Both the position numbers and the translations under genes were made by a program. From contig CAJOJJ010000005.1 in the NCBI GenBank assembly GCA_905234925.1, positions 1-36,341 on the forward strand: a stretch of 36,341 nucleotides of DNA, read 5' to 3'. Positions 8,685-35,400 of the stretch are shown here, in pieces. Below the pieces are notes generated by a model. The model had not been told where the DNA came from. It searched no databases and saw nothing but the letters and a program-made list of their open reading frames with translations. This stretch comes from an uncultured Endomicrobiia bacterium (GTDB taxonomy: Bacteria; Elusimicrobiota; Endomicrobiia; Endomicrobiales; Endomicrobiaceae). Position 1 is the stretch's first letter. Each line of letters opens with the position of its first letter.

Positions 8685-8818
8685 AGCTGAGCCGGGAGCT
8701 TTGCTCCCTCAGCTGAGCCGCGGACTTTGTCCGCTCTGCTGAAGAGCTGAACAGTTTTCGGTATTTTTTGCGTTGCAAAAAATCTTTTACATTTATCAAA
8801 AATTGCTTCGCAATTTTT
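8685..8818. repeat. Array of four tight perfect hairpins with 3-nt loops
   Basis: GGGAGC-TTT-GCTCCC (8694-8708, nested in AGCTGA/TCAGCT), GCGGAC-TTT-GTCCGC (8720-8734), ATTTTTTGC-GTT-GCAAAAAAT (8763-8783), AAAAATTGC-TTC-GCAATTTTT (8798-8818). Confidence 0.85.
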
Positions 8819-8858
8819 ACAACAAACCATTCAACTTATCACCTTATCAGCTTATCAA

Positions 8859-10157: not shown

Positions 10158-10358
10158 TTGTAACCCCTTATGTTAATGTATAATGTACAATGTATAATGT
10201 ATGATAAACTACAAAGACAATACACAATGTAAATTTATAATAAATTCTAACGACGATATACCGCATCAAGTGCGGTATGACAGACGGAACGGCAATGTAT
10301 AATTTTCAATTTATAATTTACAATTAACGACAAATAATGTAAATGAACTTTAACATAG

Positions 10359-10393
10359 ATTCCGTGTCTGTCCGCGTTGCGGACACACGGAAC
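10359..10393. repeat. Dispersed palindrome ATTCCGTG...CACGGAAC with inner TGTCCGC-GTT-GCGGACA hairpin
   Basis: attccgtgtctgtccgcgttgcggacacacggaacgac. Confidence 0.75.
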
Positions 10394-10444
10394 GACAAAC
10401 TGTTTTTGTCGTTGCTTTTTATTGCACATTGTACATTGCTGTAA

Positions 10445-10526
10445 TGCGGATAGAGGGACTTGAACCCCCACACCTTACGGTATATGGTCCTAAGCCATAC
10501 GCGTCTGCCAATTCCGCCATATCCGC
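10445..10526 (-). tRNA. tRNA-Leu (anticodon UAG)
   Basis: Reverse complement GCGGATATGGCGGAATTGGCAGACGCGTATGGCTTAGGACCATATACCGTAAGGTGTGGGGGTTCAAGTCCCTCTATCCGCA; 7-bp acceptor stem GCGGATA/TATCCGC, anticodon loop CTTAGGA, long variable arm, TTCAAGT T-loop; CCA not encoded. Confidence 0.95.
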
Positions 10527-10627
10527 ACCATATTACAAAGATTAGTTATTATATCATTTTAATGAAGTTTTAGTCAACTGAAAAAAATCGCAAGACGGAA
10601 ATTAGTAATTAGTAATGAACGGCAAAA

Positions 10628-11135: not shown

Positions 11136-14100
11136 CTATGCCGCTGCCAATACAGACCTCAACCCAACTAAAGATTTATCACTTATAAATTCCACGCTTT
11201 CCGTATCAAACGGAACAATATTTTTATCAGCGTACAACGGAATTAATTCTATTATGGCAGCAATTGCATCCGAATTATTATTTGAGAAAGCTTGCTGAGA
11301 TAAAACTGCAAGGAGTTCGTTCAATGTTCGTTCCGCCTCGGATGCTTTCATAGTAACGACGGACTGTTTGAAATCGGCTGAGAGCTGAGAAGAAGATGAC
11401 AAATCTTCTGCGGAAGAACGACGAGAGCCCGTATCGGTGTGCGCAATGACAGATTGGTAGAGAGCATTGGCAAGCATAACTTCCAGTTTGTGATCACGCA
11501 AACCGTATTGTATACCTTGCTGTCTCATATAATTAACAGCTAAAATTCTCTTTAATATTTCTTCCGTAAAAGCCTCTTTTTCATTCGGTTTTAAAGAAGC
11601 ATAGTATATGGAAATCTGTGATAACGGATCAAGATAATCGTTCAATAATTGAAACTTGTCCGAAACGGCAGAACGACGCTGGATTGCCACGCTCGACGCA
11701 GTCTCGCTCGCAATGACGGACTGATTAGATGTTATAATATCAATAAGTTCTTGTTCTGGAATTTCGGGAATTTGAGCATAGTCAAAATTTGATGCTGCCT
11801 GTTTAACAAAATCAACACTCCTTTTTTCCATTATTCTTTTGATATTAACGGCAGAATTTAAAAAAGTGAATATTCCGGAAGTTTCGTCAATTTCATCTTT
11901 GAAGCGACTGATTTTGAGAACTGAGAGACTTCCGTCAAAACTGTCTATTTTATTTAAGTCGGATATCATTTTTACGGTTGTTTCGGTTGATGTTACGCTG
12001 TCAAAGTATTTTCCGTCGACTACATAAGAGAAGATACCGTAATTTGAAAGATTGGAAGCTTGTAGTATTGGAAGATTGGAAGAAGAGGAGTCGTCGAAGA
12101 CTACGGAAATTTCTATATTGTCATCTTTTAACTGTTTAATAATTTTTAAAAATTCTTCTCTCGCAAGATCGACACTGCCTAATTTTTGTTCAAGAAGGTT
12201 TATAATTTTACCGATATAAGAAGAATAAAATAAAATTTTCGCACTTGTACCGAGTTTGTCGGATTTAACAAAAGAATTTACAAGAGAAACCATATCATCA
12301 GGCGAAGAAACAGTATCTGCGGAATCGTCGATAAATATCGCAATATTTTGATTTATCGTTACAGCATCGACTTTTTTATTGGCAACCAAAGCTGCCTCTT
12401 TTCTGTAGTCGATATATTCTCCCGTCTTTAAAATATTTTCTCCTACAATGATATGCCCTGCCTGCGTGTAAGAAAGTTCTCTATCGGGATTAGTCATATC
12501 AATCTGAACAAAATCATTTTTAAATCTCGGACCGAAAAGCCTTGTAAAATCATAGCTGTTGATAATTTCCGATACAAGATTTTCCGGTTTTATGTTGGGA
12601 GCATATATAACCATGACTTCCCGATAATTTCCGAGCCAAACTCTGGAATAACTTCCGTATTCATTTTTTACTTTTATCTTAACAGGTCTAAAATTAAAAT
12701 CTTTTTCATTTCCCGGAAGTTCAGTAACAACGAAAGTTGTGCGGTTATACTCAACATCGGAATAAAGCGACGGGAAAGGTGTTGCCAAAGAAGAAACTAC
12801 ACGGGGTTTCTTTTCCTGAGAAATAAATATTGTACCGTCTTCATTAAAGGAAACTCTTTCTTTCCCGTAAAGATTTACAGCCTCACGTAAACCTGAAGCC
12901 CTGATAAATCTGAAATCCATAACGGCATGAGATGTAACATTTACGAATAATGCTGCAATTTGAGAAATTATAAACGTTCCTAAAGTAATAAGAAGCGAGG
13001 AGAAAAAACCAATTCCCGTAGTTATAAGAAATATATTAACGGCAACAGATAAAACAATGCTCATCAATTGAGCAAATATCGTAATTTTAGAAAGTTTTTC
13101 CGCACCCTTATTGGTTAAAGGATGTTCTGCTACAAAAGAAACCGGAGTAAGAAAAGATTTCCATGTTTCTTCTTTAATAATGGTTTTTAAAATATTAAAC
13201 ATTGATGCGGAACCCGTCGCTATCAGATTATTTATCTTTGCAAATGTGGAAGGGAGGATGGAGTTATCCGAGTCTGTTCCGTCATTAAAAAATGTTACCG
13301 GGTTTCCGTCAGCATCATAAAACTCTATGGATATATCCAAGTCCAATTTTCCGTCATTTAAGCGGTAATTAAAACTATACTGTCCTGCAATAACAATAAT
13401 TTGCATATGTTCATAATCCATTAAAACTTCTTTAAGTCTGGGTTTATTTGTAGTTCCGCAAAGTTCCATCCAAACATCATTATCCAAATTTAGCTTTAAA
13501 ACAAGTTCTCCGTTCTCATCAAAAGTATAATCATGTCTTAAAACACCAAAATCGGCAATATTGGTCAAATTCTGAATCGCATTGGGGTTTTTCGGTAAGA
13601 AACGAATTCTTATTTTAGGATCGAAATTTGTTGGAATTTCTTTTAACTTCATTTTTAAAGTAATATCCGTTACATCCGTAAGATCCACAAGTTTGTCGGT
13701 TCCGTAAGTCCTCCAATTGTAATCCTCTTCCATAATAAAATTAACATTGGACATACCGGTCATTTCCGTAGAATAATCGACACCTTCAATTTTTTTCAAA
13801 AACCAAAAATAAGAAATTCCGTATTTAATCTGGGTTTGCTGCCCTACAGAGGTACAAAGAGCATTAACCGTGTGAACTTCCCATCCGTCGGGATAATAAT
13901 TTAATAAACCGTCTTTATTACAATAAACTATATAGTCGGAATAAGCGCCCAAATCTTTTGAATAAGCAATACAATCGTCCAAAATTGCCTGAGCTTTTTC
14001 TTCCTGTCCGAGAAGTTTGTAAGAAACTGCCATTTCCATAGACCATTCAAAACTTACGGAACTTCCTGCATCCAAACTCCAAGTATATAAATTTTTATAT

Positions 14101-17100
14101 TCTTCAGGAACAGACGTTGATTTAAATTGTTCGGCAAAAGCCAACAAACGATCGATATCAATATTTGATAATCCTGAACTTTCATATATCTCAGGATTAT
14201 AATCTTTTAAAGCCAATAAAACCTGTATTCCCCACGCCTGAGTATCCAAGACATAAGCTTCATCTTTATATCCTCTGACGAAACCACCCTTATCCGCATC
14301 ATATAAATTACTATATATGAATGCAGCAGCAGATTCCAAATCCTGTTTTATCTGTTCGGAACCGTCATAACGACTTTTTAAATTAAGATATGCAACAGCA
14401 TCAAGCATATGTTCAGTCGATACCCATATATGTCCGTTCTGTCCGTAGTAACTGCCGTCTTTTTTATGCACATAATCCAAATAATCATCTACTTCCGCAA
14501 TTAAAGAATCATATCTTGTCGTACCCGTTAAAAGTTTATATTGAACGGCAGCAATACCTACCCATATCATTTCTCCCGTAACCTGGTATCTTTCCAAGTT
14601 TGATTTATAAAAAGTTCCGTTACTGCTGATAGTATTTAAAATTCTTTCAGCACCCTCTCTGTCGCCAATCTGCATAAGAGATAATGCCGCTAATGCCTGA
14701 TCATATAAATTTTGAATGGATGCCGCCGTATTGTTAACAAAAACTTTGTTCTCGTCCATATTGCGGTAAGTGAAAGAATTATACTTGCCGTTACCCGAAT
14801 AAAAAGTTTGTAAATAGCCTGAAATTTTGTCATTAAATGTTCTGTACTCTTCATTTAAAACGACATCGGATTTTGATGTCTGTTCTATCACGGATACAAT
14901 TTGAGAAGGTTGTTCGTTAATACCTTTTTTATCAAATACGCTGCAGGCAGTCATTGATAAGGTAAGAACCATTGCCATAACAAACAAGAAAAATCTACTT
15001 GCCAAATTTTTTAAGTGCGTAGTCATTAAGGGAGCAGTCTTTAAGGATTGATTTTTCTCCTCTTTTGCCATAAGTCCTTTTTGCATAATTTCGGGCATAT
15101 ATTCATAAATTACCGGCTCAACTCCGTCGAGAGTTTTTCCGTCATATTGCGATACTGCAATATCCCATACTGCCCCGTTACCGAGATACCATTTTTTGTC
15201 AACAGTAAATACGCATATATCTTTTGCAATTTGATATATTTGAGGAGCAAAAATATCTTGCCCGTAATTAAAAGATGTCTTAGCTATTAAAGAAACCATA
15301 TCTTTTAATTTATCTTCCGTTACGGGTTTTAATTGTTCTGCAGACAAAGAAGAAATATTTTGCTGCTCAACAACTTTTGCTATATCTTCGGTAATATCTA
15401 TTGTTTGTTCCGTACCGTCGGAGAAAGAAAATTTAAGAGTTTTTCCGTCAGGCAGAACGGATACCGACACATTTTGAGCAAATACCTGATTAAGATGTGT
15501 TGCCAGCATATTTACGTTTATGGTATCTAAGTTTTGGTTAGGGAACATTGAATTTATAACTGCAGAAATTTGTTCCTTTGAAGACGCATTAGAAATAAGT
15601 CCCAATGCTATCATCTGTCTTACTGACATTGCCTGATGCAAAACAAGATTTTCGTAAACAGATCTTGTTGCGGCTGATGCATTTATAACCTCAGGGGTTA
15701 TTGTTATATTGGATATATTATTTTTATTTAACAGTTCCGTGATACCTTCGGTATGATAACCGCCGGAAACAAGAATCATTATTTTCTTGGCAGAAAATAA
15801 TGAGGGAATATCAGAAGAATTAACGGCAACGACACCGCTGCGCGGTTGAACGGAAGATATCTCACGCTCGCTACGCTCGGTTCGAGATGACAAAGTGGAA
15901 GAAGCACTTGCAATGACAGGAGTTTTCAGAATGCCCATATTGGATAAAAAGATTGAGTTTCTTTCGGTGTTGACGTTGTAGAAATCCGTTAAAAGCCGAG
16001 AATACATTTTTAAATTTGCAACATCATTCTGCACGGAATATTTTGCATAAAGTTCTTCAAACTTTTCCAACCCCAGCTTAACATATTCCCACTGAGAAGA
16101 CGATAATTCGGCAGAAATATATTTTTTGTAAAAATCTTTAAAATCACTTATATAAGCTATTTCCAACTCTGTCGGAGTTTCGGACAAATATGTTCTTATC
16201 GTATCAATTAATTTTCTTTCTTCTTTAACCATTGCGACAGGGTTTACACTTAAAGAGTCTTTTTTTAACGATAAAAATTTATTTAAATTAGGGTAAACTT
16301 TTGCGATATTTATTTTTTTAGCACTGCAATAATTTTCTATCACGGTTTTGGCAGCCGAAAAATTCGAAAATTTTGCCGTTGAGGATATAATTTTATTATA
16401 TTCATTGTAAGAAACATTTTTCTTTATTTCGGAAATTACGGCAGCAAACTCTTTCGAAAGAGATTTCTTATTTATATCCGACGAAGACAAAGCCAAACTG
16501 AAAGCATTTTGCAGATTTTCATATTTTTTTGTATTTATTCCGTTGTCTGCCGCAACAGCAAAAAGTTTGGATAAAAATTCTTTTCGAGAAATTTTTTTGT
16601 TCTCATATTTATCAAGAAGATTACTAAAATTTTTATTTTTGGAAGTTAAATATTTCGCTTTAAAAAAAGCTACTTCTCTGTCGATATTTGAAAGATACTT
16701 ATCATTATTCCGTTTGGCCTTCAATATTTCGGAAAGTCTGACGATATTTTTTTTATATGATTTTTCGTTTTCTACTCCTTTTAAGAAACCTTGTTTATTA
16801 TTTAAAACAGTGTAATACTCGGCGCCGGTTAACCTGCCTGATTTTAAGAGATTTTCCAAAATAGTTTTCTTATATGCCGGGTTAATATCGCCCAAAATGC
16901 CGAAATCTGCCGTACCTATACCACCCTCGGCATAGATATTTTCTATATTATATTTTTCGCACAATTCATCAATGATATTATAAATATTTTTCTGCACGGA
17001 ATAGTCGCAGTGTAAATCCTGAATATTTATTACAAGAGTATCACTGTTTTTGTTATTAACATCTATTATTTTGCCGAAAGATGAGGAAATTATTGAATCT

Positions 17101-17270
17101 TGAACATTATTAAGGGGTATAGAAGTTTCCGTTTCGGGCGCAGTTATCCCATCAAGCATTTTTGGCGTGTCGGTATTTACAGCGGCAAAAACATTTGGTG
17201 AGATTACCATCGACATAAAACAAAACGATGTGATAACGGCACAGACTTTTTTAAAGATTTGATTTTTCAT
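11136..17270 (-). CDS. 2044-aa secreted multidomain protein: signal peptide, ChaN/TraB-like 'INIQDLHC' domain, internal lipoprotein-like signal, (alpha/alpha)6-type domain, beta-sandwich, TM segment, C-terminal alpha/beta module
   Basis: Signal peptide MKNQIFKKVCAVITSFCFMSMVISPNVFA; 'DTLVINIQDLHCDYSVQKNIYNIIDELCEKYNIENIYAEGG'; 'IMILVSGGYHTEGITELL'; 'FFLFVMAMVLTLSMTACSVFDKK'; 'TGEMIWVGIAAVQ...HIWVSTEHMLDAVAYLNL'. CDS certain, function uncertain. Confidence 0.85.
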   Translation of the reverse strand: MKNQIFKKVCAVITSFCFMSMVISPNVFAAVNTDTPKMLDGITAPETETSIPLNNVQDSIISSSFGKIIDVNNKNSDTLVINIQDLHCDYSVQKNIYNIIDELCEKYNIENIYAEGGIGTADFGILGDINPAYKKTILENLLKSGRLTGAEYYTVLNNKQGFLKGVENEKSYKKNIVRLSEILKAKRNNDKYLSNIDREVAFFKAKYLTSKNKNFSNLLDKYENKKISRKEFLSKLFAVAADNGINTKKYENLQNAFSLALSSSDINKKSLSKEFAAVISEIKKNVSYNEYNKIISSTAKFSNFSAAKTVIENYCSAKKINIAKVYPNLNKFLSLKKDSLSVNPVAMVKEERKLIDTIRTYLSETPTELEIAYISDFKDFYKKYISAELSSSQWEYVKLGLEKFEELYAKYSVQNDVANLKMYSRLLTDFYNVNTERNSIFLSNMGILKTPVIASASSTLSSRTERSEREISSVQPRSGVVAVNSSDIPSLFSAKKIMILVSGGYHTEGITELLNKNNISNITITPEVINASAATRSVYENLVLHQAMSVRQMIALGLISNASSKEQISAVINSMFPNQNLDTINVNMLATHLNQVFAQNVSVSVLPDGKTLKFSFSDGTEQTIDITEDIAKVVEQQNISSLSAEQLKPVTEDKLKDMVSLIAKTSFNYGQDIFAPQIYQIAKDICVFTVDKKWYLGNGAVWDIAVSQYDGKTLDGVEPVIYEYMPEIMQKGLMAKEEKNQSLKTAPLMTTHLKNLASRFFLFVMAMVLTLSMTACSVFDKKGINEQPSQIVSVIEQTSKSDVVLNEEYRTFNDKISGYLQTFYSGNGKYNSFTYRNMDENKVFVNNTAASIQNLYDQALAALSLMQIGDREGAERILNTISSNGTFYKSNLERYQVTGEMIWVGIAAVQYKLLTGTTRYDSLIAEVDDYLDYVHKKDGSYYGQNGHIWVSTEHMLDAVAYLNLKSRYDGSEQIKQDLESAAAFIYSNLYDADKGGFVRGYKDEAYVLDTQAWGIQVLLALKDYNPEIYESSGLSNIDIDRLLAFAEQFKSTSVPEEYKNLYTWSLDAGSSVSFEWSMEMAVSYKLLGQEEKAQAILDDCIAYSKDLGAYSDYIVYCNKDGLLNYYPDGWEVHTVNALCTSVGQQTQIKYGISYFWFLKKIEGVDYSTEMTGMSNVNFIMEEDYNWRTYGTDKLVDLTDVTDITLKMKLKEIPTNFDPKIRIRFLPKNPNAIQNLTNIADFGVLRHDYTFDENGELVLKLNLDNDVWMELCGTTNKPRLKEVLMDYEHMQIIVIAGQYSFNYRLNDGKLDLDISIEFYDADGNPVTFFNDGTDSDNSILPSTFAKINNLIATGSASMFNILKTIIKEETWKSFLTPVSFVAEHPLTNKGAEKLSKITIFAQLMSIVLSVAVNIFLITTGIGFFSSLLITLGTFIISQIAALFVNVTSHAVMDFRFIRASGLREAVNLYGKERVSFNEDGTIFISQEKKPRVVSSLATPFPSLYSDVEYNRTTFVVTELPGNEKDFNFRPVKIKVKNEYGSYSRVWLGNYREVMVIYAPNIKPENLVSEIINSYDFTRLFGPRFKNDFVQIDMTNPDRELSYTQAGHIIVGENILKTGEYIDYRKEAALVANKKVDAVTINQNIAIFIDDSADTVSSPDDMVSLVNSFVKSDKLGTSAKILFYSSYIGKIINLLEQKLGSVDLAREEFLKIIKQLKDDNIEISVVFDDSSSSNLPILQASNLSNYGIFSYVVDGKYFDSVTSTETTVKMISDLNKIDSFDGSLSVLKISRFKDEIDETSGIFTFLNSAVNIKRIMEKRSVDFVKQAASNFDYAQIPEIPEQELIDIITSNQSVIASETASSVAIQRRSAVSDKFQLLNDYLDPLSQISIYYASLKPNEKEAFTEEILKRILAVNYMRQQGIQYGLRDHKLEVMLANALYQSVIAHTDTGSRRSSAEDLSSSSQLSADFKQSVVTMKASEAERTLNELLAVLSQQAFSNNNSDAIAAIIELIPLYADKNIVPFDTESVEFISDKSLVGLRSVLAAA

Positions 17271-17461: not shown

Positions 17462-20400
17462 TTATGCTGCAGACAGGATACTTGCAATACCGTCCGTAGA
17501 TACCATCCAAGAATCGCCGAACAAATCTTCTGCCGGCAATATCGTATCTATGGTAAGTATCAGTTTTATCAATCCTTCCAATGTCATTGTATCCGTCTTT
17601 GCATTTTCTTTATTAATCTTTATTGTCATTCCTTCATATTTCCACATTGCCAATAATTCTTTAGCAATTGTAGAATTATTTAATAACTGATAAGGCGTTT
17701 CTTGAGCTGTTATTTCAGCTTTATTTACTTTATCGTTAATTGCTGACAAACTGTCGCCTTCAATCATCATCTGTAATGCCGCACCGACAAGAATTCTATA
17801 ATTATTTCCATCGGTTCTGACATTTGCAGGAATAACACTTCTTTCTATTTCTGCAGTCATTGCACCTATTACAAAATCTCTTACCGCCTGTGTTCTGTAT
17901 ATATCTCTGTTCTGTTCATAATCTCTGTTGGATTTTGCATAAGCCTTTGCAGCTTCAGTAAGACCTGCACCTTGTTGCCCTCTTATGCCCACATTAATTA
18001 ATCTTCTATAGTCATCAGAAGTCATTAATCTGTCTCCGGACAAAACGGCTCTGATAAGCCTTATCGTCTCTTTCATATCTTCAGTTGTATTTTCATTTTC
18101 ACCGTTGATAAACATATCGGAAATTTCTCTGCCGAAAATCTCTTCCAACGTACTTTCTCTTCCTCTCATTCTCATATTATCATTCAGGCTCTCTACGAGA
18201 TTGAACTTACTTAATACACTTGTCGCTTTTGCACATATAGTCAAACCTGCATTCTTTAATTTTGCAATGACAGTTTCATCTACGGCATCTTTATCATTTA
18301 CTCTTACTACCAATTTTGCATTATCCCTTAAAGAAGCAAAGTCATCTTCTTTATCTACATATGTCTTAGCATCTACAACCAAATCGAAACCGTTAGCCTC
18401 TATAAATTCAACAATAGCTCTGTTAATTTGCCTGCTTATATTAAATTTAGAAGAAATGCCTCTATTAATACTGAAATCATAAGATATTGCAGGAATTGTT
18501 TTGAATTCACTCATTAAAGGAGCAATCACATTGCCGTAAGTTTGACTCAATTTAGCTTTAACACTTTCAATATTTTCTACCGTAATATCGTCCTTAACAA
18601 CCAATCTTATACCTGACAAATCTGCAGCAACATAACTCTTCAAAGCATCTTCATCAATATTTGCAGAATCAACTTCAACAATAACTTCAAAGCCGTGTTC
18701 TCTTATGAATTTGATTATTTTATCAAGATCTTCTGCGTTACTGTCTTCCTGAATAACTATTGTTGTTACACCGGCATCTTTGAATTTATTTAACATATTA
18801 TTCTTGGATAAAGTTTCAAGGTTTGTATTGGAAGTTATCTTGAAGTAAACTTCCTGTCTCTGAACAGACTGATAACCATCGGAAACTTTTGTTGAAGGAA
18901 TAAGTTTATTAAATTCTGCAGAGGAATAATTCAACAATCCGTTTCTGTATTCATAAATACTCTTCTTAACATCTTTATCAAAATCATCCATTTCTTTAAT
19001 CTGTTTAATATTAGCTGCATTTAAAATTTTATCACCTATTGCAAACTTTAACAATCTGTCTCTTACAACCGAATCTCTGTCGATATACAATCTTGTTTTT
19101 GTCTTATAATCTGCAGCCTGCAATAAATGTCTCTGAGTTTCCTCGTCTAACATATCAAACACTCTCTTTGAATCTCTGTTGAGTTGATAATAAATATTCA
19201 TTGCATTTGCATCAAAATTATCTCTGCTCATCATCACGTTAAATTTAAATTCTATTTTGCTGTTTAGTTTATTTACAAATATACCGGCTTTATTTATTTT
19301 GCCAAAATATTCGCCTGTTGCCGTAGTCAATTCGGTTTCTCCCTTAGAGGTTGTTCTTGTCGTAAGGTGTCCGCTATCTATCATTCTGTTAATATCAGCT
19401 TCACTTATAAAAATACCTTCAGCAACAGTCAATTTCTTATCGCCTTCTTGTTTTTCGTATATTTCTGTTCCGAAATTAAACGTTATATTCTTTTTAGTTG
19501 TTCCAAATTTGATACTTACTTCCTGTACTACAGGCACAACCTTTGCCGTATCTTCTGCCTGTTTTGCTGCGGTTTGTACTGCACCCGGAGTTTCAGTTAT
19601 CGGCTCTGCCGGTTTCTGCTCTTCTGCAGAAGGTTCTTCAACAACAGGAGCAACGGTATCCGGAGTTACAAAGACAATTCTGCTGTTGTCACTATCAAAA
19701 TAAGATTCGAGATATTCTTCGGTAATGCCGTCAATGTCTGCTATCAGATTATCCCTAAATATTTCAATAACTTTTTCCAATTCAGGAAGACCAATTGTAC
19801 CGAACTCTTCAAAACTAATATATGTCTGCTGTTTATTTTTCAAAGCATCTCTAACTCTATCATAAACAGGAGTCATTCCTTTGAATCTCTTTTCTGCTTT
19901 CTCTTCCAACTCTTGTTGCGCTTTTTGCTCAGCTTGTTTTGCTGCCAATCTTTCAAATGCTGCAGCAGTTTCTTCATTTTGTTGTATAGAACCCATTGCA
20001 ATTTCATAAAGATCCTGTTTCTTTTCAGGAGTCAAACCTTGCTGCTGTGCGGGCTGAAGTTCTTCCGATTCTGCAGCAGGAGTATAAGGTTCATAAGATA
20101 CTCTTGATGCTTCATATTGTTTTTGAGCCGCCGCCTTATCAGCTTCAGCCTCTTTACTGCCTAAAACAAAATCAAAACCTTTATCATCTTGTTTCTGAAC
20201 ATAAACCAAAGTATTGCCGTCGGATTCTAATTCGCTCTTTACTTTCTCTATTACGGTATCTGTTTCATTACTTCTTACAGCTAAATCACTGTTCAAAGCA
20301 TAAGGTTCATATATACTTACATGATATCTGCCGCTTAATCTAAGCTGCTGATAAATAAACTCAAGTATTTCATCTAACTGCTGTGCTCTTGATACGATAG

Positions 20401-23400
20401 GAGCAGTCGGAATGTTTCCTTCCGATCTTCCGGCAATAACAGATACAGGATGCTCAATAACTTCTTCGGGCTGAACTTCCGCAAGTTCTTCCGCAGATTG
20501 TTCAACAACTTCTTCTGCTGCAGGCTGTTCCATAGGCACAGCTGAACCTGACACAAAACCCGGTTGACTTATAGGTGGTATATATTGAGAAATACCTCCT
20601 ATATTTGTTTCTCTTTCTTTTTCAACAACAGGTTCAATAGGCTGCTGTTCTGTAGGCTTTGCTTCAAAAGTTTCAGCTTGTTCTGCCTGCTCAATTGCGG
20701 CTTCTTCTTCAGCTTTCTTTGCTTCATCAGCAGCCTTCTTTCTTTCTTCTGCTTTCTTTATAAGTTCGGTAGTCTTAGCCTTTGTAAATGACGTAAGTAA
20801 CAATTTATTTAAAGTATCTAAATCATTTTCCGCAAGTGCTTTTTTAATATCGTCCTTATTTTCATCTATAACTTTTTGTTGTTCCTTGTATCCGGCACGA
20901 ATATAAACTATCGCAGGAATTCCCAAAACTGCAAGACCGGCGATTGCAATAAGAGAAGCTTTTGCAATTGCAAAAGGTAAAGCAAGAGGCAAAACGGAAG
21001 CTTTAACTCTTGTTCCACGTTTTCCATTTCTAACTTTCGCAAGAGCTTTGCCTAATGAAATCATCTTATTTTTTAATGTTTTAAACATATTGCTGTTAGG
21101 CTCGTTAATTTCATCTTTCCAAACTCCGTTCTTGTAATCCGATATACCTTTTAACGCAGAATATACCACATATATAAGAGCTAAACCTGCTCCAATAAAT
21201 GGTACTATGCCTAATCCAAGATACGGTAATATAGAGAACAAAGCATAAACAACAAACGGAATAGCCAAAGATTCTACAATTGCTGCTACACCTGAGCCTT
21301 TACTATTCTGAGCAAAATGTTTATAAATACTTCTCGGACCGAGATCTCTTAACCAATAAACTAATGTATCTATACCATCTGCTACCGTCAATGTACCCAA
21401 TACTACTGTTGTCACTAAACCATTAACAGTAAAGATCTTAGATAATAACTTAGATACTTTAGACAAGCCCTTAGCTTCACCTACATCTTTAAAATGTAAT
21501 TTCCATTCTTTTATCAAATTCTTCCAAGCAAGGCTTGGACCGTTTACGAATACATTATATCCGGGCAGCATCTGTGTCTGTCCGAGAATAAACGCAAACG
21601 GTATCAATATGTACAAGAAAGAGAACGACTGCGTTAAAGGTGTAAACTTATAAGCAAGTGCCGCAAAAATTATAAATATGCTTGATGTTGCAGGTGCAAG
21701 ATGAGAATCAAACAAAGCTTTCATAACCGGTGTAGCTTTACCTTCTCCCGGAAGAATTTCAGAAATATTTGCCCCTGAACCTCTACCTGTATTAACATAC
21801 TGTGCTCTACCTTTTGTTCCTTTTATTCTGCCATCCCAATGTGTCATAATCTGGGTAACAAAGAACTTGAAGTTTGCAAACAAACCTTTACCCCAAACAA
21901 GGAATGAGCCGAAATAATTTAATATTTCGTTTATCCAAACAGGAGCAGGCTTGCCAAACAATTTATGATCATAGTTAACTCCGTCTTCATAGTTCATAAA
22001 CTTGGTTACAAGTCCCGGTAAACCGGCATTTTGTGATAACATAACGCCGAACAATGCAAGCAAGAATGCTATAGGTATGGAAGCAAACGGACTTGCCCCA
22101 ATGAATAATATACCAAACAAGAATATATTAACAACGGGAACAACTAATCTCTCCTTCAGATAGAAGCCCGGTCCTTCAAGGAAGTCCATAGATACTGCAA
22201 ATATACTGCCTACTTTACCGAAAGCTTCAGCTTCTGCAACCTGATACTCATATTCGTAAGGAGACTGTAACAATTCTCCCGAACCCATTGCAAATTTATT
22301 TACCATTCCGGTATGGAATGCAACACCGGCTTCTCTGGTTTTTTCTACGGCAATACCATAAACATCCATAGTCTTACCGCCTTTAGCTTTAGCGGATTTA
22401 CCGCCGGCAGCATCTTCGGAAACTACGGATTTACTCTGACCTGATTTTGCCTTTAAGAAAGAGCTTCTTAAAATATTCGGATGTCCGTACATGTGCAGCT
22501 GCCACATATCGTTCATATCTTCGTGAGAAGCATTAAAACCTGCTTCAGCCAATGCTCCTTTAGCACCGACTTTAGTTAATCTTTCCGTAGGTATATTTTC
22601 CTGCATAGAAACATTATAAACTTCAGGATCCTGCAACAACGGCTGCAATGCGGAGAAGAAAGTTAATGCAGTCTGCTGAGTTATTCCTTGGTTCATATCC
22701 AACTGTAAAACAAAATCATTTTGAATATAGCTTTCCAAATATGTATGATGATCAACTTTTCCCTGTCCGTAAATACCACCGCCGAACATACCTTCATAAG
22801 GTGTTGCATAAGTTTTTTCATCATTAAATACAACAACTGAAAGTAAACCGTTTTCTTTTTGACTAAATAAGTATTCTTCACCTTTAGTTTTATATTCGAC
22901 AACTCTTGCAGACTCTCTGCCTTCGGCTTCCCATCTGTCAAATTTAGCTTTCTCTTTGTCAAGTTCAATTCTTATCTGTTTCAGTAAAAATTCGTCTGCA
23001 GTAGTAAGCATTCCGGCTTTTTCATCTTTTAACAATTGTTGATACTTTTCATAAGAAACATCTTGAGCTTCAAGCCTTCTAAAAGAAATCAAATGAACTT
23101 TTCCGTCAAATTTTGTTCCTGCTTTCCACTCTTTTCCGATATCTGTTTTTTCAATTTCAAGTATTAAATTCCTGTCATAATCGGAAGCCAAATTTCCCAA
23201 AGCTTTCAAATGTTTATAATCTGCAAAAGTATGATCTCTGCCGTGCAGTACGGGAACCGTCAAAAATCTGAACTCTTTCATATTTCTGAAAAGTCCTATA
23301 ACTCTCGGATCATTTGCACCTTCTCCATCGTTATAAACTTTACCGAATTGCTGATAACCTGATATAGCCTGGAAACAACTCATATCATCAACCATATTAT

Positions 23401-26400
23401 GTATTCTTGCCTGCCAATCTTTTTCACTTTCGCCATTTTTTCTGATATTACTGTATTCAATTTCAGCCAAGAAATCAAGAGTATCTCTCAAGTTTGCAAG
23501 ACCTATATGCAGAGGAGACAATGGTTGAAGTTTCGGATCTGCCCATCTGGTAATTTCTTCTTTAATCCAGCAGTCAGGAAGTTCAGAGCCATTTTCTCTT
23601 GTAAGTTTTCTTCCCTTAACTACGGAACCGTCGCTATTAAGCATCTTCTTCATCTGTTCGAGAACTTCCAAATCATCTTCCGTAAGTTCTTTTTCTCTGC
23701 CTCTAAAATCAACGGCATAATATTTGCCATCACGCACTACAGGCTCCAACCTGGTAAGCATATTTGCCCACTCACCGGAATACTGTATCATTAAATGTGT
23801 CAACAATGTATTTCCGTCAGCCTGAATATCATTTAATGCTCCCATTAAGTTTGTAACAGCTTCATCATTTGTAGGAACAAGTGCCGCCAAGCTGATATCT
23901 TTAATATTCGGATTTCTGTAACCTTGAGTTGCTCTGATACTGCTTTCCTGATGCAATCTGTAGAACAACTGTCTTGCACCGAAAGCAGAAGGACTCTCAG
24001 ACAAGTCAGGATATTTAGTTATCTTCCTGTCAAGATTATCTCCGTCTTTATAGTCTGAAATTTCAAACTTGTAAGCTTCATATTCCGATTTCGATATCCT
24101 ATCCGTTCTAAAATAATCTTTTAATACGCTGTTAAAATACAATGCAAAAGCAACTTGTTTCTGTTCTTCTGTAAGACGCTTTTCAACATCTTCCGGCAAG
24201 AAAGTAGCCTTCCAGTCGGCATATAGTTCACCTAACGTAAATGAACCTTTTTCAATGGTATAGTTTTTGAAAGCTTCCCAACTTCTACCAACAAAAGCAC
24301 TTCTTTTCATTTTCTGTTTTCTTATTGCTATAGCTTTTAACATATCGTTAAAACCGTAGAAATCAAGCAGTGTAAATGCCAATATTGGAACAGCAATAAA
24401 TGCCGCATAAACTATACCTGATATACCCGGTATTGCAGCAACAAACGACATCAAAAGTAATCCGATTGCCGGAGCTACAAATGTACCTACGGAAGCCCAA
24501 ATTCTTGCACGTTTAATCTTTGCAGCATCTTTCTTGCCTTCCATATCCGTATATTTCTTTTCGAGCATAGTATCTATTTTCTTATGCATGGTTATAGTAA
24601 GTGCTGCACCTAAGAAAACAGCAATAAATACAAATTTGAACGGTGTCAGCATTGTAAATAAGCCTAAATTTCCAAAGGAAGATACGGCGAGTTTACCTAC
24701 AACATTTTCAAATATTAAGTTGGCGGCTGCATATCCTAAAACAGCTTCCCATGCAGTTTTTATAATAAGTAAAGGAATTATTCTCTGTGCCATAGCTTTC
24801 TTGGCTCTCTTAATATCTTCTCTGCCTTTCAAGCCTCTATTTTGTGCATTAAATATAGTTTTGCCGTACTGTGTTTTAACAGGGTTCAAATCATTTTGTA
24901 AATGTTTGTTATAGGCTCTCAAACCTAAATAAACACCTGTTGTGATAAGGACACCTGCTGCAAAAGTTATTGCAACTGCCGGTAATATTGCTGCACCTAA
25001 CGTACTTGCAATAAAGCCTGCAACTATAGTACCCGTAACGGTTAAGTTACCCAGCCATAATGCTATAAAGTTCCTTGACATTGTCAAGCTGTAAAGAGTT
25101 CCGACAAAAGGAATATAAGTTCTGAAGGGAAGTGTTTTTACAGAGAACTTAAAGCTCTTTTTATTCGTATCGGTGTCATTGTTTTTAGAATATTCTCCGT
25201 CACGGAGATTTTTATCGACAAAATCGCTGTAGTTTACAATATATTCCGGCGTTCTGAATATTGCATCTATATCGTAGTAAGAAATATTTTCATCAGGTCT
25301 TGTTTGAACTCTCGGACCGAAACCGCCTTTTACACCGAATATGGCTCTGAAACCATATTTCTTAAAATATTTATCCATTATAGCTGTATATTTTAAGAAA
25401 ACCGTAGAACCCGGACCAAAAGCAGGTTTACCTTCTGCATTTTTAGGAACAGCATATCCGTTATAAGAACCAAGTATTGTAGCTTTATATATGCCTTCCT
25501 GTTCATCAATTTCAGCTTTGTGAGCATTGTAATATTCTATACCTTTCTTCAATCTTATGCCGAGTTTGCTTCTCTGCTGTTTCGGTGTCATTTGACTCAA
25601 AGCATATTCCATTTGGTTAATCTGCTCCTGTATGGAAATACCGCTCTCTACAAGGTTCATAAATCTGGAAGCTTCCTGATTTATCATATAACCGACTGTA
25701 TCACTTTCTCCGTTCGCAATCATTTCTTTGGCTTTGAAGAATAAGAAGTTTCTAAATGACATAGCTTCCTGTCTCATGGAATCCATAGCCAAGTAAATGT
25801 AGTAGAACAACAACAAATCTTCGTTTGTAAAGTTATCAATGTTGGCATTTTCTTCGATAAAATACTCTTTTTGTTTTTGAAGCCAATTCTGTCTATCAAC
25901 ACCTTCCTGAACAGGACCTTGCAATGACTGTACATAAGCTTCAGCCATGACATTGGTTATCCACCATTTATATTCGTCAAATACGGACACTGCATCCATA
26001 CCTCTGCTGTAAGCTTCAAACTCTGATTTTAATTCGTCGCTTGCTGTTGTAGGATCGGAATTATCACTGATAAATTTCTCTCTGTCTTTTGCTTTTACCT
26101 GCAGAGATCTTACATTTTTAATCCAATCACTAAATTTGCTTTCTTTTATTTTTCTCTGCATAAAAGATTCCATGTAGTTATTCAAATCCTCATCCGAAGC
26201 GGTTTCAATGTCAGCTACAGTTCCTGTTTTACCATTTGCAACTGCCCATTGATGATAACCGTCAATATGATTCTGTCTTAAAATAACGGAACTTTCCAAA
26301 GCTCTCTTAAATCTTTGTGTATTAAAATTAAATTTATTTACTTGTTCTGAAGTAACCGTCCTTGCGGCATCAGCCTGTTTATCCTGAGATAAAACGGTTT

Positions 26401-29400
26401 CGGAAACTCTTTCAGCTTCTTCCGCTTTTTCTGCTTTCATTGCATCTATTTCATCATCCGGAGCAGTGCCGCCTTTCAAAGCTCTCTTCTTAACAGCTTT
26501 TCTCTTTTTATTTCCTTTATGCCATGCAGAAATTATCGATATAACAAACAATCCCGGAATTAATATCAGTGCTGCTATTATAACGGGGCGAGAATATTTT
26601 GCAGGAATAAATTGTTCTATAAATTTTACAATATTGTTCCACAAAATTTTCATTTCATTCTGCCAATTACTGACAGCTTCAGCCTGAACTTTACTTTCGA
26701 GAGTTCCATTTTTACCGTAAGTGTATGCATATCTCATATATATCGGATTCGCTAATGTGTTAGTCGGCTCCCAATAATTATTTGTAACAGAGAAGCCATT
26801 GGAACCTTTTCCGGGTGTAGTAGAATCAAATATTTTTGATATTCTCAAACCGCCAAGCTCGTAAGGGATTTGATCCTGTGTTTCGAGTTCTTCCGCAAAT
26901 GCTCTCAAATCAACTTTTTCATCTCCAGTCTGATCGTTACCAACTCTCTTCTGCGCAGTATCTAATGTTTCAAAAAATTTCCCCCAAGCATCAACAATTT
27001 TTCCGTCTTTATCTGCATATTTTGCCATAAATTCGGCTTCAGACATTTCACCAGACTTAAATTTTTGATAGTCAAAAACAGCAACAAGTTCTTCGTCATT
27101 CTCACCGTTTAATAAATAACCATACTGAGATTTACCGGTTCTGTTTATAACATTAATTTCGTAGTCACCGTTTTTGAATGAAGATATAGGAGAATCCGTT
27201 ATAGGTCTGTCATAAACCTCAAATTCTTTCAAACCGTCACTCTTAAACGATACAAATACCAAGCCTGACATTTGATTTATATACTCTGCCAATGCTTTAC
27301 CGTTAACATCTCTATATGTAAAATCCAATCCCACTCTCTTACCAAAACCTGAAACCCAATTATCTTCATATCCGGAAAAGAATCTTTCTGCTTCGGGATT
27401 TTTCTTTACGGTATAAATTAAAGATGTAAGAGGCTTGTTACTATCTCCATCCTTATAATACTGACGAATTTCAAGATCTCCCATAGCATAAATATAATCC
27501 GTTCCCTCAATATCGGCTAAAGTATAACTTTCTTTTATCTCGCCTTTCTTTGCAACATACTTATTGAAATCTAAAGATAATTTGTAAGGGAAATTAACAA
27601 CCGTATCAGGATGTCCGACATTCAATTGTCTTCTTTCCGAACTTGTAGTCTCTCCCTGCATATAAGAACTGAAAGATATTATGGTTGGATAACCGAATAC
27701 CTGCTCAAAATATACTCTCTCTCTTTCTGTATCAGACATTTGTGAAAGCTGAGCATCCGTATAATCAGTTCCGCTCTTTTTAATGCTTCCATCTTCATTA
27801 CGTTCCATATTGGAAAGTATTATACATGTTCTCCCTTCGGCATTGTTCATAATATAAGATTTTTCCGTTTTAAGTTTCTCATCGTAACCGGTTACGGAAT
27901 CCTTATCGTTCAATCCCTTGTAGGTATGCGTAGTTCCATCTATTAAAGCATTTTCAAAATCAAAAATATCTCCTCTGTTTGAGTCGGATATAAGTCTGAT
28001 AACATTCTGTTGCTGTTCACTTAATTCATAAGGAGCCGTATCTTCAATCTGAGTTCTTTCATGGGCAAATAACACCGTATTTACGGAATTATCATAAACT
28101 ATTGCATTTGCGGTAACTCTATCGGTAAACTCAGACATACTCTCTAATTTAACAACACCGTTTTCAAACTCTACGGAATAAGACCTTAAACCTATACCGT
28201 ATTGATCATATTCCGGAACTAAAATACCTGAAACATATTGTCCGCCTTCTATTTCATACTGCTGTCTGATATTGCCCAAGAAATCAAGTTCTCTTTCATA
28301 TTCTCTTAAAGGATACTGTCTTCCTGCATATATTTGTTCTCTGCTGTATATTCTTCCCAGTTTCGTTCTGCTGTTTTCTCCTTTTTCCCAATCAACACCG
28401 GCAAAATAGCTGTAGCTTACGCATCTCTCTTCATTTTCAGTTTCACTTATTTTTCCGTATTCGTTAAATTTCAGCATGGAATTTCCTTCATCATCATAAT
28501 CAATTGCATAAGTTCTTGTCTTAGTAGGTATTCCTAGCAGCATCAAGATTGACACATCGTAATCTTCAGCACTGCCTTTTAAGAAAACAACATCTTTAAG
28601 ATCATCATTACTGTAAGAATAACTTTCAACTTCGGATACCTGCCAAATTTCTTCATCGCCGTCGTCAGCTCTAAGGTCATTAACATTGTTAATCATTTCA
28701 TTCATATTGTTACTTTTAGAAATTTTGAGCCAACTTCCGAAATATTTATCAAGTGCATCTTTCCAAGTTATATCATTACTTCCATAGAAGAACATATCCG
28801 TAGAATCTTTCATTCTTATATGATATTTATTTCTTAATACACCATCTTCATCTCTGTCTTCAATGAAAGCCGTTCCTTTGTAAGAATCAAGAACTACAGT
28901 CCCTACACCTTTAACAGATACCATGTTGATAGGATCCTGTAACAAATCTTCATTTAACAAGTTATATCTTAGACCGCAGTTTAAAGAGGTTCCGCTATAT
29001 TCTTTATCGTTAATTTCATAGTCTATAGTGAAATCCACATATCCTTCCGGTGTAATTTTTACAAGCGGAGTGGAGCTGTCTTTAAATGCTTCCCAACTTA
29101 CAAGAACTTCTTCTCCGTTAGGATTTTTTACTATTCTTCTTGTCCATGTAAGCTCATCCAAACTATAATCACAGTAAGGTTTTACGGTTGCAAACAAACT
29201 TTCCAAAATCTCATTATTATACGGGGTATTCTCATCATAACAGAAATACTTTTTATCATCTACCATTTCGCCGTAACTCATACCCTTTGTTTCCACTATA
29301 GCTTCATCACTTTGAATATTGTCTTTCTTATTTATTTGGTATGTTGGGATACCGGTTTCTTCATCATCTTTTCTTGTTGCAAGATAACTCTTACTGGAGA

Positions 29401-32400
29401 AGTATTTATCTCCTCCTGAAGATATAACCGTCAATATTCCGCTGTTGGGATCAGATTCGTCTTCAAAACTGAACTTGGCATTATTGGACGACAACCAAAC
29501 TATATTGTTATCTTTATCCGTAATATAATAAATACCGGTTTCGGCAAATGCATCCATAAACTTATCGGACAAACTTTTTACGTTTCTGGTATTACCTTTA
29601 TCATCGGTAATTTCTATAGACGAAATTTTGTTATTTATAAAATCAGTTAAATCTTTTGTTTTTACGCTTGAACCATCTTCCATATAGATAATTTCAGGCA
29701 TATAAATAACTACAGGCGATATAATGGGATCCGCATCTTTTACTGAATCCATATATACTCCGGCTTCGGCATTTTTTATTAAATACTTCATACCGTAATT
29801 TGTATTTATCTCTTTTCCGTTATAGATGTAGTGAAGTTGATTATCTTCTTTATCATAGCGAATAACCAAATTGCCGTCAGTTTCCAAATCTTTGTCATAT
29901 GGGACGCAAACACCGCTATAATAATCGTTACCGTTTTGTGTGCGTTTATTATCGAACATTTCTTTAAATCCCGTCTCAATCGTTCCGTCATAATTTTCAG
30001 GAAGTTCAAGCTCTACGGAGAATAAATAAACGTTTTCATTACTATAAGTATCAACTATATCGCAGATAAATTTACCGTTTTCATACCTGATATTGACTAT
30101 ATTTGCAGTATGACCGTTTTCAAGAATTTTTACCGCATATTTTTGGCTTGCCAATAAATCGGCATATTTTTTTACACCGGCTTCATCACCTGCTTTTGCA
30201 AGATTATTCATCTGCGTTGCACAGAAAAACATATATCCCAAACTGTCATAATTATCAACATTGGAATCGCCCCTTGTAATCAAAGCACTTCTTACATCTT
30301 GAGCAGTAATTTCACCGTTTTTGACAAACGCAGTTCTTTCGCCTGTTTCACTGTCGACTGCATATATTGACAAATCTTCTTTTTTAACATCATTTAACAA
30401 AACTGAGCCTATAACTTCGGTCTTTACAACACCGTTTTCTTTCCAAGAAGCAACAACATTACCTTTATATGAACCGTTTTGTGAATCATATGCAAAACCG
30501 GTTAAAGATATTTCTATTTTTTTACCGCTTTTGTTAACGGTTTTTACAGGAATACTGCAGTTTCTCAATGCAACTTCACTTTTTCTTCTATAATATGCAA
30601 GCTGCCCGAAATTATCGTAAATTATATTTTTTATATCTGTTTCGGATACATTTTTATCGTAGATTCTTAAACTATTGTCAGAATCCAACGTATACGTTAC
30701 ATCAATCAGGTTAGTTCCGATAAAATAGAATTCTTCATCAAGATACGCAAACGTTTCTGTTCCCAAGTATGCACCGTTATCTTCATTAAAGAAGTTTCTT
30801 GAGAATACTTTTACTTCTTTTCCTTCATCGGTATAGAATGTATTTCCGGAATTATTAATTACTTCTTCGGTTTTATCGCCGTTGGAAGCATATTTTGTGT
30901 ATATATAATTTCTATCGCCGCCGTCATCACGTACCGTCAACTCACTGTAGCTTCCGTCGACAGCTTTTTCCGTTCTTACACTCGTTTTTGTAACAACAGA
31001 ACCGTTAGCCGATTCCTTGTAAGAAACGGTTGTTGTATAAACTTCTCCATCTTTAGTTTTTTCTGTTTTTGTATAAGAAACGGATATTCTGCCGTTACTC
31101 TGTCTTTCCGCATTTGCAACTATAGTTATAGTTGTTCCGTCACCTACCGTAAACGCCTGCGGTGCATATTTTGCAGTATCGGAAGATTGCAAATCTCTCA
31201 TTAAAGAAGAATAAGCAGAATCAAAATCAACATCTTCATAATTTTCAAAAAGATCTTTCGTATTGTATAATTCAACATTTAAAACTTTCTTCACATTTGC
31301 AGTTCCGCCTGCCAACAAAGCATTTTGATTATACAAATAAGAATCGGCAATTTCCTGAGCCGTAAAATTATCATATTTGAATAAATCTATAAGTTTTCCG
31401 TCTGTTCCGTAAGGATAAGTTTTTGCAACGATAAGATCTCCGTATCCGTCGACAAAACCATCTTTGGTTATCTCGAAATATACGGCATTATTATCATCCG
31501 TTTTCATTTCTACATGATAGCCAAGACCAAGATTTTCCAATTCAGACTTAAAATTCGATAAAACATCCGTCAACTCATTAATTTTATCAATATCAAAGTC
31601 ATATTCGCCCTTAGCATTAAACGGATAAACATCAAAAGTTATACCGTTCTTTGTAACCGTAAAATATTGAATATAATTATCTTTGTTATCAGTATCTTGT
31701 TTTACATGAGATTCTACTTCATATTCTGCATCAAGCAGCTGCTGCCATGATTTAACGGTATCTCTTACGCCTTCATAAGTTTCTCTCTTGTTTCCGATAG
31801 AAAAAGTATCTTCTGTTTTAGAATATCTGTATATATCAATGCTGACACCTTTGGGAGTTGTTATTCTATAGACAAACATCTTGTAATACATCTTACTGTT
31901 CCCGCTCCAATAAGACATACTCTTATTTAAGTACGAAACATCTTCAACTTCAACATCTATATTCTCTTCTTTTTTCAAGCCATCTTTTATCAAACTCATC
32001 ATATCGTTATTTAAGAACGATATATTATCCAAAAGTTCCATTCTGTTCTCATCTGTTAATCTGTCACCGGAATTCGTAATTTCTTCATTTATGGCAGAAA
32101 TTTCGTTTGTAGTTTTAGCGCTGTCAAGTCTTGCTTTAAGAGCATCATAATACACATTTTTTGCTTTATCTTTCAAATCCTGTTTTTGATTATTTGATAA
32201 AGAAGCTGATGCTTCAACATTATCTACAAATGTGTCAAAAGATTTATTGTCCGTAAACAAGGAATAAACGGCTCTTTTCGCCCAAGTATCTTTAGTATCG
32301 GAAGCTTCAACTTTAATAGTTTTAAAGAGATTGTCTATAATATCGTCAGTTAATAACTCTGCAGCAACTTCGGCAGAAACATCAAAATCTTTTGCAAACT

Positions 32401-35400
32401 GTACACGGATTTCATCTCTCATTTCTTTTTCTGTGGTAACTTTAAATGTCTGTCCGGAATTATTTTTATCTTCAGAAGTTATATATGCATTTATGTTGTT
32501 TATATAGTTATCCCCTGAAGCAACAACATTAATTTCTTTTCCGTTTATTGTTCCCTGTAATCTCAATTCTCCGTTAGTTCTGTCTATTTTCGGATAAAAA
32601 CCTTCTGCTTTCATTGCAAGCATAGCCGATTTTGTAATTATAGCATTGGCACTTACACCTTGTCTTACATAACTGCCTTCGGACATATCCATTGCAAAAA
32701 TTCTATTTTCAAGAGTATCAAACAGATAATCTCTCATTTCAACAGTAAATATGTCAGGATTATTTTTCTGGTCTCTAAAAATTTCGGTTCCCATATTTCT
32801 CAAATTAGACCTTGAAGTTTCGGTAACCATTTTTGCAACATAAATAGCCGATAATCTGTCCTGAGCTTCTGTTCTATAGCTATTTTTTTCGTCCTCAGAC
32901 AAACTTGAAGAATCTATATCTTTTACTATGCTTACGATTTCATTCAAAGATGATGCCGCTGCAATCTTTCTTGAATATACTTGATTCAACAACAAATCTT
33001 TATTCATTAAGGATGACGTATTAATACTATCACTTATAGTATTTACTTCTCTTAACGTTTTTGCAATTGTAAATTCTTTCTCATATGCCTGCTGCAATAA
33101 GTTTTCTTTCTGAGCAGGTTTCAACATGGAATCGTCCGTTCTTTCTATGTAAGATATTATGGTATTTATATCGGACAAAGAATCCGTTAAAGTTATTTGC
33201 TTCCGGTAAGCTGCTTCCAATAACATCTGTTTTTGTTCGTTTGTTAAATCAGCAGACTTTTTAATACCGTTTATTAAATTCTCAATATTTTTGTCGGTAG
33301 CCATAGAAATATTGCTCATTATCAAAGCTAATCTGTTTTCAGATGATAAATTAGGAAGAACTGCAAACATATCATTGAAATTGTTATCTGCAAAATATTT
33401 TTCTACAGCTCTTACTGCCCAAGCAGAAAGGCTGTCGGTCTTTTGATATGCTTCCATTCCTATAATTCTATTTAATAAGCTCCCCGCAACATCACCGGAT
33501 ATAAAATTAATTTCCAAAACTCTGTTGAGCTCAGCTGCAACGGCATCCGACATTCTGGATGTTACTACTTGATTATATCCGGTACTTTTAGTAAATTCCT
33601 CTACTCTGTCAATATAGTCGTTTGTGGATTCTAAAGAACCGTCTTCATTTATCTTTCTATAACCTGCATCCGCAATTCCCTGCTGAGTTTCTGCCGCACC
33701 TACGGGTATAGGCTGTCTAACGCTGCTGCCTGCAGTTAAATCTATTTCATTTGCCCTTTTCTGCAAATATTCATACAGTTGATCTCTTTGTGCTTCGGTT
33801 AAATTACCGGCGGTAGAAGCAGCGTGTATTGCCTGCCCGATAGCACTCAATTGTAAAATAGCGTCTTCTGTTGCCGTTTTAACATTTTTTGTCGTGTCTA
33901 TTGTTACTTCATTATACGCAGTTACAATAGCATTTACGGTAGCTTCATTTTCCGTAACGGTTTCTATTCCATCTTCCGAAAAACTTTCTTTTTCCAATAA
34001 AGTAAACACATTTGTGGATTTATCATTAAGTCCTGCCTGAAGCTCTTCAAAACCGAACTTTAACCATGCAGTTGCTGCATCGGATTCGTCCGCATATATA
34101 TTAAAGTTCAAATAATCTCTGTTTTTTCCGTTGTATTCTTCGGTTGTATATTTAACATAAACATTATTACCGTCGATAACTACCAAGCCCGCTTTTATTG
34201 CTGCCTGAAGAACTGAATGTGCTTCGGAAGTTCTCCCTGCTGCAATAAGAGTTGCGTAAACCTGCATCGTAAATTCACCGCTTACAGCTCCGTCTTTCAT
34301 ATCTGAGAAGCCGTAAATATAGGTAATATTTCCGTTTTGATCGGTTCTTGCCAAACCGCCTTTATCTTGAGGAGTTAACAATTTATCTACCAAACCGTCC
34401 AAGAAATCTTTACCGAATACCGAATCAACATCTACTCCCGGTAAATTCATATCTTTTATGGAGGAAAGCATCAAATAACCCCAAGTATATGTATCTACGG
34501 CTTGTTTTTTATCATTTAAGCCCTCATTTAAACCACCGGCGGAATTTTTCAAATTGTTATTAATATATTTCAATACTTTATTTAAAGATGTCGTATCGCC
34601 TTTAAGTGCGTAGTACATCGCAGCATCAAGCATATGTTCAGTCGATACCCATTTTTCTTCTTCCGTTCCCTTGAAAGCCATCGTTTCCGAATCTTCAATT
34701 TTTACTTTAGCCAAATAAGCATCAACTTCGCTCAATATTGTTTCAACTGCAGATTTGCCGTTAATTTCAACATCTATTCCTGCCTGCTGACAATAAAGCG
34801 CAAATATTCCTGCCCACAAAGTTTCACCCGTTTTTTTATAATTTTCTACATTGGACAACTGCAGATTTTTCGAAGCCATAGTTCTTAATACTGCTGTTGC
34901 CGTAGTTTCATCATTGCCGAATATTGCCGTAATTCCTGCAAGAGCATTATCATATAATTGAACAAAATCCGCATTATTTGAAGATTTTAAGAACGAATAG
35001 AAAGGATAAAGTTCCGGAGTTTTTTCGCCGGATGAAAAATCTTTCATATTACCGACTGCAAATGCTCCTACGGAATCTTCCAAAGAACCTACACTCATCG
35101 TATCATAGATTTTTTCAATTTCATCTATGTTAACGGTTACTTCACTTACTAAATTTTTGCCGGTTTCGTCATACATTCTTTTTACGTATAATTGTTTTGA
35201 TGCATCCGAACAAATAACTTCCTTATTTAAAACACCATCTTTATAAGTTTCAACCGTATAGCTGATTTTTGCATTTTTTGCCGAGTTTGTATTAATTGTT
35301 ATACGAGAAATAATGTTTCCTTTAGAATCTCTTTTCGTCTTGGTATATGTGTAATAAATAACACCTTCATCATTTCTATTGGCAGTTCCTTTATATGTAA

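Follow-up and report, generated by a model that had tools for sequence, protein, structure and literature searches.

A bacterial GT48 synthase module inside a giant open reading frame of an uncultured Endomicrobiia bacterium

A GT48 module in a giant open frame

We analysed the whole of contig CAJOJJ010000005.1 (assembly GCA_905234925.1), hereafter the window, a stretch of 36,341 bp that forms one contig of a 1.37 Mb genome (86% complete, 106 contigs) from an uncultured bacterium of the Endomicrobiaceae, a family within the phylum Elusimicrobiota (PMC11257099). Its minus strand carries a giant open reading frame (ORF), and an earlier note on this DNA had proposed that the frame harbours a divergent prokaryotic lineage of glycosyltransferase (GT) family 48. 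Members of GT48 make the main polysaccharide of the fungal wall as well as plant callose, are the target of the echinocandins, and are described in the literature as eukaryotic. The frame and the catalytic domain within it are laid out as follows:

17462-36340, minus strand: giant open frame of at least 6,292 residues, open to the contig end
17462-36250, minus strand: giant ORF of 6,262 residues from the first in-frame ATG, N-terminus incomplete
22166-24223, minus strand: GT48 catalytic domain (GT-A, cellulose-synthase-like), placed by PF02364, a profile match at E 6e-84, AlphaFold2 and Foldseek, and catalytic residues

Since the frame is still open at the contig end (36340), the true N-terminus is missing, and residue numbers of the giant protein are therefore counted from the contig edge. 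The frame shows no sign of decay, and the GT48 module occupies residues of about 3,250-5,155. Running uninterrupted for at least 6,292 residues in the window, with large domains in addition to the enzyme, it qualifies as a giant ORF, as do its relatives, most of which measure 3,000-43,000 residues; in same-genus relatives the module lies in frames of 7,385 and 10,563 residues.

Sequence and profile evidence for GT48

The peptides that the earlier note had likened to motifs of the eukaryotic enzymes are all found in the minus-strand frame, from window position 25819 to 21805 and in the order it had given, and the proposal of a prokaryotic GT48 lineage inside a giant ORF is supported by sequence, profile and fold evidence. 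The control profile was built from eight other bacterial GT48s only, aligned without any window-type sequence. It matches the window frame with 273 bits (E 6e-84) over residues 4052-5228, which span the GT domain and the C-terminal membrane cluster, while 20 block shuffles score at most 1.8 bits. By hhalign, a profile of the window type aligns significantly to yeast FKS1 (E 1.1e-6, probability 91%) and to the canonical bacterial GT48s at E 4.9e-76 over 816 columns. When a 20-sequence bacterial profile was searched against the PDB, FKS1/GSC2 was recovered at 2e-62, with no GT2 among the matches listed; in another profile search the GT2 protein BcsA was only weakly matched (0.002), with FKS1 far ahead. 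A single-sequence PDB search with the window gave FKS1 at E 0.34, which is not significant, in an alignment covering the YGHP...ED catalytic segment. Matches to EmrE, BRE1 and presenilin in the PDB searches were dismissed as hydrophobic or coiled-coil noise.

Because the window on its own is sub-threshold for PF02364, it is the relatives with strong matches to both PF02364 and FKS1 that link it to GT48. One of them, a 3,691-residue frame from the Endomicrobiaceae (L017), has a GT part that matches PF02364 at 7.7e-68 and yeast FKS1 at 1.8e-34 by phmmer. An Omnitrophota genome (G348) reaches 6.5e-89 with PF02364, and an Omnitrophota relative is 32.6% identical to yeast FKS1 over 491 columns, compared with 18% for the window GT48. 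PF02364 matches none of 14 control genomes. The similarity is thus not due to chance, and the link is secure even though PF02364 alone stays sub-threshold.

Fold and active site

We modelled window positions 20849-24355 with AlphaFold2, obtaining a mean predicted local distance difference test (pLDDT) of 74 and values mostly around 90 in the GT domain. Compared with the PDB by Foldseek, the model matches Fks1/Fks2 at all of ranks 1-13 (E 3e-14 to 5e-8), BcsA follows as the first GT2 at rank 14, and GT2 cellulose, chitin and hyaluronan synthases appear from 9e-6. The structural comparison with FKS1 suggested in the earlier note thus returned FKS1, with no better match to another membrane family. 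The whole-chain template modelling scores are modest (up to 0.44), which is no surprise with membrane parts modelled at low confidence.

The roles of the catalytic residues E851, K1082, D1102, N1104, E1221 and D1222 have been assigned in Fks1 structures (PMC12715860), and their counterparts fall into three segments of the window:

23855-23878, minus strand: VPTNDEAV, in which E is the equivalent of FKS1 E851, and Y849 is replaced by N
22685-22768, minus strand: GQGKVDHH...LDMNQG, in which K corresponds to K1082 and DxN to D1102-N1104, and N1085 is replaced by H
22400-22492, minus strand: MYGHPN...VSEDAAGG, with the equivalents of YGH1193-1195 and of the catalytic E1221-D1222

The window retains all six catalytic residues, as do nearly all of 34 bacterial sequences, and the DxN signature, which reads DMN in the window, is found in 34 of 34 bacterial rows. 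A QxxRW motif is absent from the window module, and the combination of DxN instead of DxD with no QxxRW speaks for GT48 rather than GT2.

Fks1 (PDB 8JZN, 9WZS, 8WLA), the best fold match, resembles the window module in having a GT-A cellulose-synthase-like domain between two membrane clusters, in the conserved E851, K1082, D1102-x-N1104, YGH and E1221-D1222, and in an FKS1_dom1-like motif at conserved spacing. Unlike Fks1, the module, at its low identity, has a bacterial insertion ahead of the K1082 motif, has no Rho1, and is fused to giant ectodomains. The extracellular Fks disulfides Cys658-669 and Cys1328-1345 have no counterpart, as the window module has two cysteines only and both lie in the GT domain. 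The substrate contacts Y849 and N1085 of the Fks subfamily are replaced as well, at positions that vary in bacteria. Without the disulfide cysteines the module is a GT48 but not an Fks-subfamily protein, and we regard it as a new bacterial form of GT48 that lies outside this fungal subfamily and has an architecture of a new kind. The plant callose synthases belong to the same family by Pfam (PF02364). In two same-genus relatives (L023 and L025) the GT domain carries internal partial duplications of the insert before the K1082 motif, and to judge from these sequences the insert seems to grow by repetition.

Membrane clusters and the position of FKS1_dom1

According to hydropathy and the model, the GT domain is flanked by a membrane cluster on either side, one N-terminal and one C-terminal, and the module is entered through a single anchor helix (residues 3249-3276 of the giant protein):

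26513-26596, minus strand: one transmembrane anchor, with a strongly basic stretch after it on the predicted cytoplasmic side (hydropathy, positive-inside rule)
25076-26512, minus strand: predicted cytoplasmic domain at the FKS1_dom1 position, with motif YYDIDAIFRTPEY (window about 25240-25290); placed by the motif and a spacing common to bacterial GT48s
24341-25075, minus strand: N-terminal transmembrane cluster of about 5-6 helices, counterpart of FKS1 TM1-6 (hydropathy, alignment)
20876-22165, minus strand: C-terminal transmembrane cluster of about 8 or more helices (hydropathy, model)
21779-21799, minus strand: YVNTGRG in the C-terminal cluster, aligned by profile with YISTGRG of FKS1

Given the basic stretch after the anchor helix, the domain that follows and the GT domain would be cytoplasmic, and the preceding 3,000 residues would lie outside.

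The earlier note had also seen an FKS1_dom1-like stretch in this frame, and here the outcome is divided, since the motif and its position suggest such a domain while a search of the window with PF14288 (FKS1_dom1) gave no match. Sub-threshold PF14288 matches do occur in two giant frames of Omnitrophota (G700, G658), about 1.1-1.4 kb before the GT48 match, and a motif [YH]DD[IVL][NDE]..F[RW], whose window version is YYDIDAIFRTPEY, recurs in many bacterial members at a distance of about 190-375 residues from the start of the GT domain, on its N-terminal side. The motif and its position suggest a counterpart of FKS1_dom1 in the window.

Predicted extracytoplasmic domains and the downstream partner

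Ahead of the anchor, the giant protein contains two conserved regions, and a large secreted protein is encoded downstream:

33941-35023, minus strand: (alpha/alpha)6 barrel resembling those of carbohydrate enzymes, with a predicted extracytoplasmic location (AlphaFold2, Foldseek)
26606-29740, minus strand: conserved ectodomain of unassigned fold that separates the barrel region from the membrane anchor
17465-20875, minus strand: C-terminal tail of the giant protein, conserved only in one same-genus relative
11136-17270, minus strand: downstream protein of 2,044 residues with a signal peptide and a paralogous (alpha/alpha)6 barrel

The barrel, at residues of about 440-800, is conserved in same-genus giant ORFs, with the invariant motifs LYD, STEHMLD, DT..WG and E-[FW]-[TS]. 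Its best Foldseek matches are YihS/sugar isomerases and the glycoside hydrolase (GH) families GH105, GH76 and GH88 (E 1e-4 to 1e-3); it is placed by structure comparison only, as sequence searches against Pfam and the PDB returned nothing convincing. Matches to an AAA_13 coiled coil and to GldD fell below the cut-off and were judged to be chance. The pairing of a sugar-enzyme-like barrel with a GT48 behind it is seen again in an Elusimicrobiota genome of another family (L020), whose GT48 frame starts with a domain like GH76, at 27.6 bits against a cut-off of 25.9. We do not claim homology between this domain and the barrel of the window, for which hhalign gives a probability of 12%, despite a similar order of motifs.

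The ectodomain (residues 2201-3245) is conserved in all window-type relatives and is recognisable in another member of the Elusimicrobiota (L018) and in one of the Omnitrophota (L031). The gene for the downstream 2,044-residue protein also stands next to giant GT48 ORFs in four other genomes (G003, G008, G010, G029), so the neighbourhood is conserved. An NCBIfam search of the giant ORF and of this neighbour yielded nothing convincing. At residues 57-570 the neighbour carries an N-terminal module beginning INIQDLHCDYSVQKNIYNIIDELCEKYNIENIYAEGG, for which there is no Pfam or NCBIfam match. Genomes of Endomicrobiaceae contain as many as about ten copies of this module, often within very large frames, two of which (in G034 and G022) also bear GT48; perhaps giant proteins have it in common as a means of export or anchoring.

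Distribution and phylogeny of bacterial GT48

In the Elusimicrobiota, GT48 is found in 11 of 341 genomes by PF02364 and in 16 of 341 by the window-type profile, and in the Omnitrophota in 36 of 384 genomes, where most of the matches lie in giant open frames (the largest having 42,913, 32,526 and 23,462 residues around the match). Several Endomicrobiaceae genera have the same architecture as Omnitrophota, with frames that run for 3,000-43,000 residues without stops, and relatives lie on contigs as long as 212-510 kb. A contig scan with two short patterns recovered 7 loci, far fewer than the whole-genome searches, and is no evidence for an absence of GT48 outside the two phyla. No GT48 relatives were found in IMG/VR viral contigs or in PLSDB plasmids. 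Some genera of Endomicrobiaceae with larger genomes keep GT48, and no genome of the reduced-genome genus g8 is among the matches; in these flagellate endosymbionts GT48 has presumably been lost.

We placed the sequences in an unrooted tree of 36 rows, in which the eukaryotes are two yeast tips only, so that neither the root nor the direction of transfer is settled by it. The window-type clade has a support of 100/99, and two clades mix Elusimicrobiota with Omnitrophota (100/99 and 96/95), with the yeast pair separate. Bacterial GT48 is deep and consists of several clades, its internal divergence exceeding the distance of some members to yeast. Two genomes (G022, contigs C43 and C13; G011, contigs C33 and C101) each carry two divergent window-type GT48 giant genes, which form two clades.

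Proposed function and alternative explanations

We consider it probable that the bacterial GT48 module acts as a membrane-embedded processive glycosyltransferase within a giant cell-envelope protein, making and exporting a tethered surface glucan. The GT-A domain, on the cytoplasmic side, would draw glucose from UDP-glucose by DxN chemistry as in FKS1, which needs no metal, and elongate a glucan, most likely beta-1,3-linked, which would be pushed through a channel formed by the two membrane clusters. The growing chain would emerge beside the extracytoplasmic part of the same protein, where the (alpha/alpha)6 barrel and the conserved ectodomain may bind, trim or anchor it, and the neighbouring secreted protein with the same barrel could help to handle it. 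The outcome would be a tethered surface glucan, produced by a one-polypeptide version of a synthase and its periplasmic accessory complex such as Bcs. Synthases coupled to extracytoplasmic glycan-processing domains are found in cyclic beta-1,2-glucan synthase (GT84 with GH94) and in Bcs complexes; these belong to families unrelated to that of the window, and the likeness is by analogy only.

Several observations weigh against a tethered-glucan synthase. Searched with the window alone, PF02364 gives E values of 2.4e-6 to 2.7e-7 and 27.9 bits, below the cut-off of 37.2 bits. The two proposed UDP-Glc contacts Y849 and N1085 have become N and H, the sidedness of the protein is predicted from hydropathy and charge, and the barrel model is of moderate quality (mean pLDDT 71) with modest Foldseek scores. 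Finally, no UDP-glucose pyrophosphorylase passes the cut-off of the GalU model in 11 genomes, a search that was uninformative, and UDP-glucose is thus a presumed donor.

The changed contacts and the GalU result would also fit a GT48 synthase with a different polymer or donor, be it another linkage, another nucleotide sugar or a heteropolymer. The low identity of the divergent window clade to FKS1 points the same way, as does the precedent of GT2, where one fold yields cellulose, chitin and hyaluronan. The core catalytic set and the DxN signature are nevertheless unchanged, and position 849, although variable across bacteria, varies also in Omnitrophota members that are otherwise 30% identical to FKS1; we hold a different product or donor to be rather unlikely, yet the alternative to be taken most seriously. 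Much less credible is a catalytically dead or structural GT48 domain serving as the membrane scaffold of a giant adhesin. Giant ORFs of Omnitrophota have indeed been proposed as adhesins or predation proteins (PMC10066038), but the window frame is free of decay, and its six catalytic residues recur in almost all relatives from both phyla.

That a GT2 processive synthase of the cellulose, curdlan or hyaluronan type has been mistaken for GT48 seems highly improbable to us. GT2 synthases (BcsA, the curdlan synthase CrdS, hyaluronan synthase) have a fold akin to that of GT48, export the polymer that they make through a channel of their own, and do appear below FKS1 in Foldseek and, as BcsA, in one profile search. 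They differ, however, in having DxD and QxxRW, and FKS1 is ahead by many orders of magnitude in both profile and fold searches. An assembly artefact or eukaryotic contamination might be raised by the fragmented assembly and by the position of the gene at a contig end, but is in substance refuted and of negligible probability: the architecture recurs across genera and in Omnitrophota, in stop-free frames and on contigs of up to 510 kb, the giant frames are intronless in two phyla, and the neighbours trigger factor, ClpP, ClpX and Lon are bacterial.

A catalytically intact GT48 in two uncultured bacterial phyla would make the origin of eukaryotic beta-1,3-glucan synthesis testable, and would bring to light a new architecture in which a glucan synthase is joined to glycan-handling domains of its own outside the cytoplasm. 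It would offer an enzymatic handle on the giant genes of these phyla, the function of which has been described as hard to assess, and intronless bacterial GT48s without Rho1 for structural and inhibitor work. The giant ORFs of Omnitrophota, such as the 39,678-residue protein of Velamenicoccus archaeovorus, fall into the same size class as the GT48 frames (up to 42,913 residues) and are described as having few annotated domains and an unclear function; the words glucan and glycosyl- are absent from the text of that study (PMC10066038). Our search of the full-text literature found no report of bacterial GT48, with preprints and many subscription papers outside its coverage, and priority is uncertain. 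One could also speculate, as a tentative idea that we would not yet call probable, that GT48 is of old bacterial stock, a family of Elusimicrobiota and Omnitrophota and the source of the eukaryotic callose and fungal wall synthases, and that many of the giant genes are tethered glucan synthases, not adhesins or predation enzymes.

Gene neighbourhood

Downstream of the giant gene and its partner, window positions 2598-10527 hold a serA-like gene, lon, clpX, clpP and tig together with a tRNA-Leu, an ordinary bacterial protein-quality cluster.

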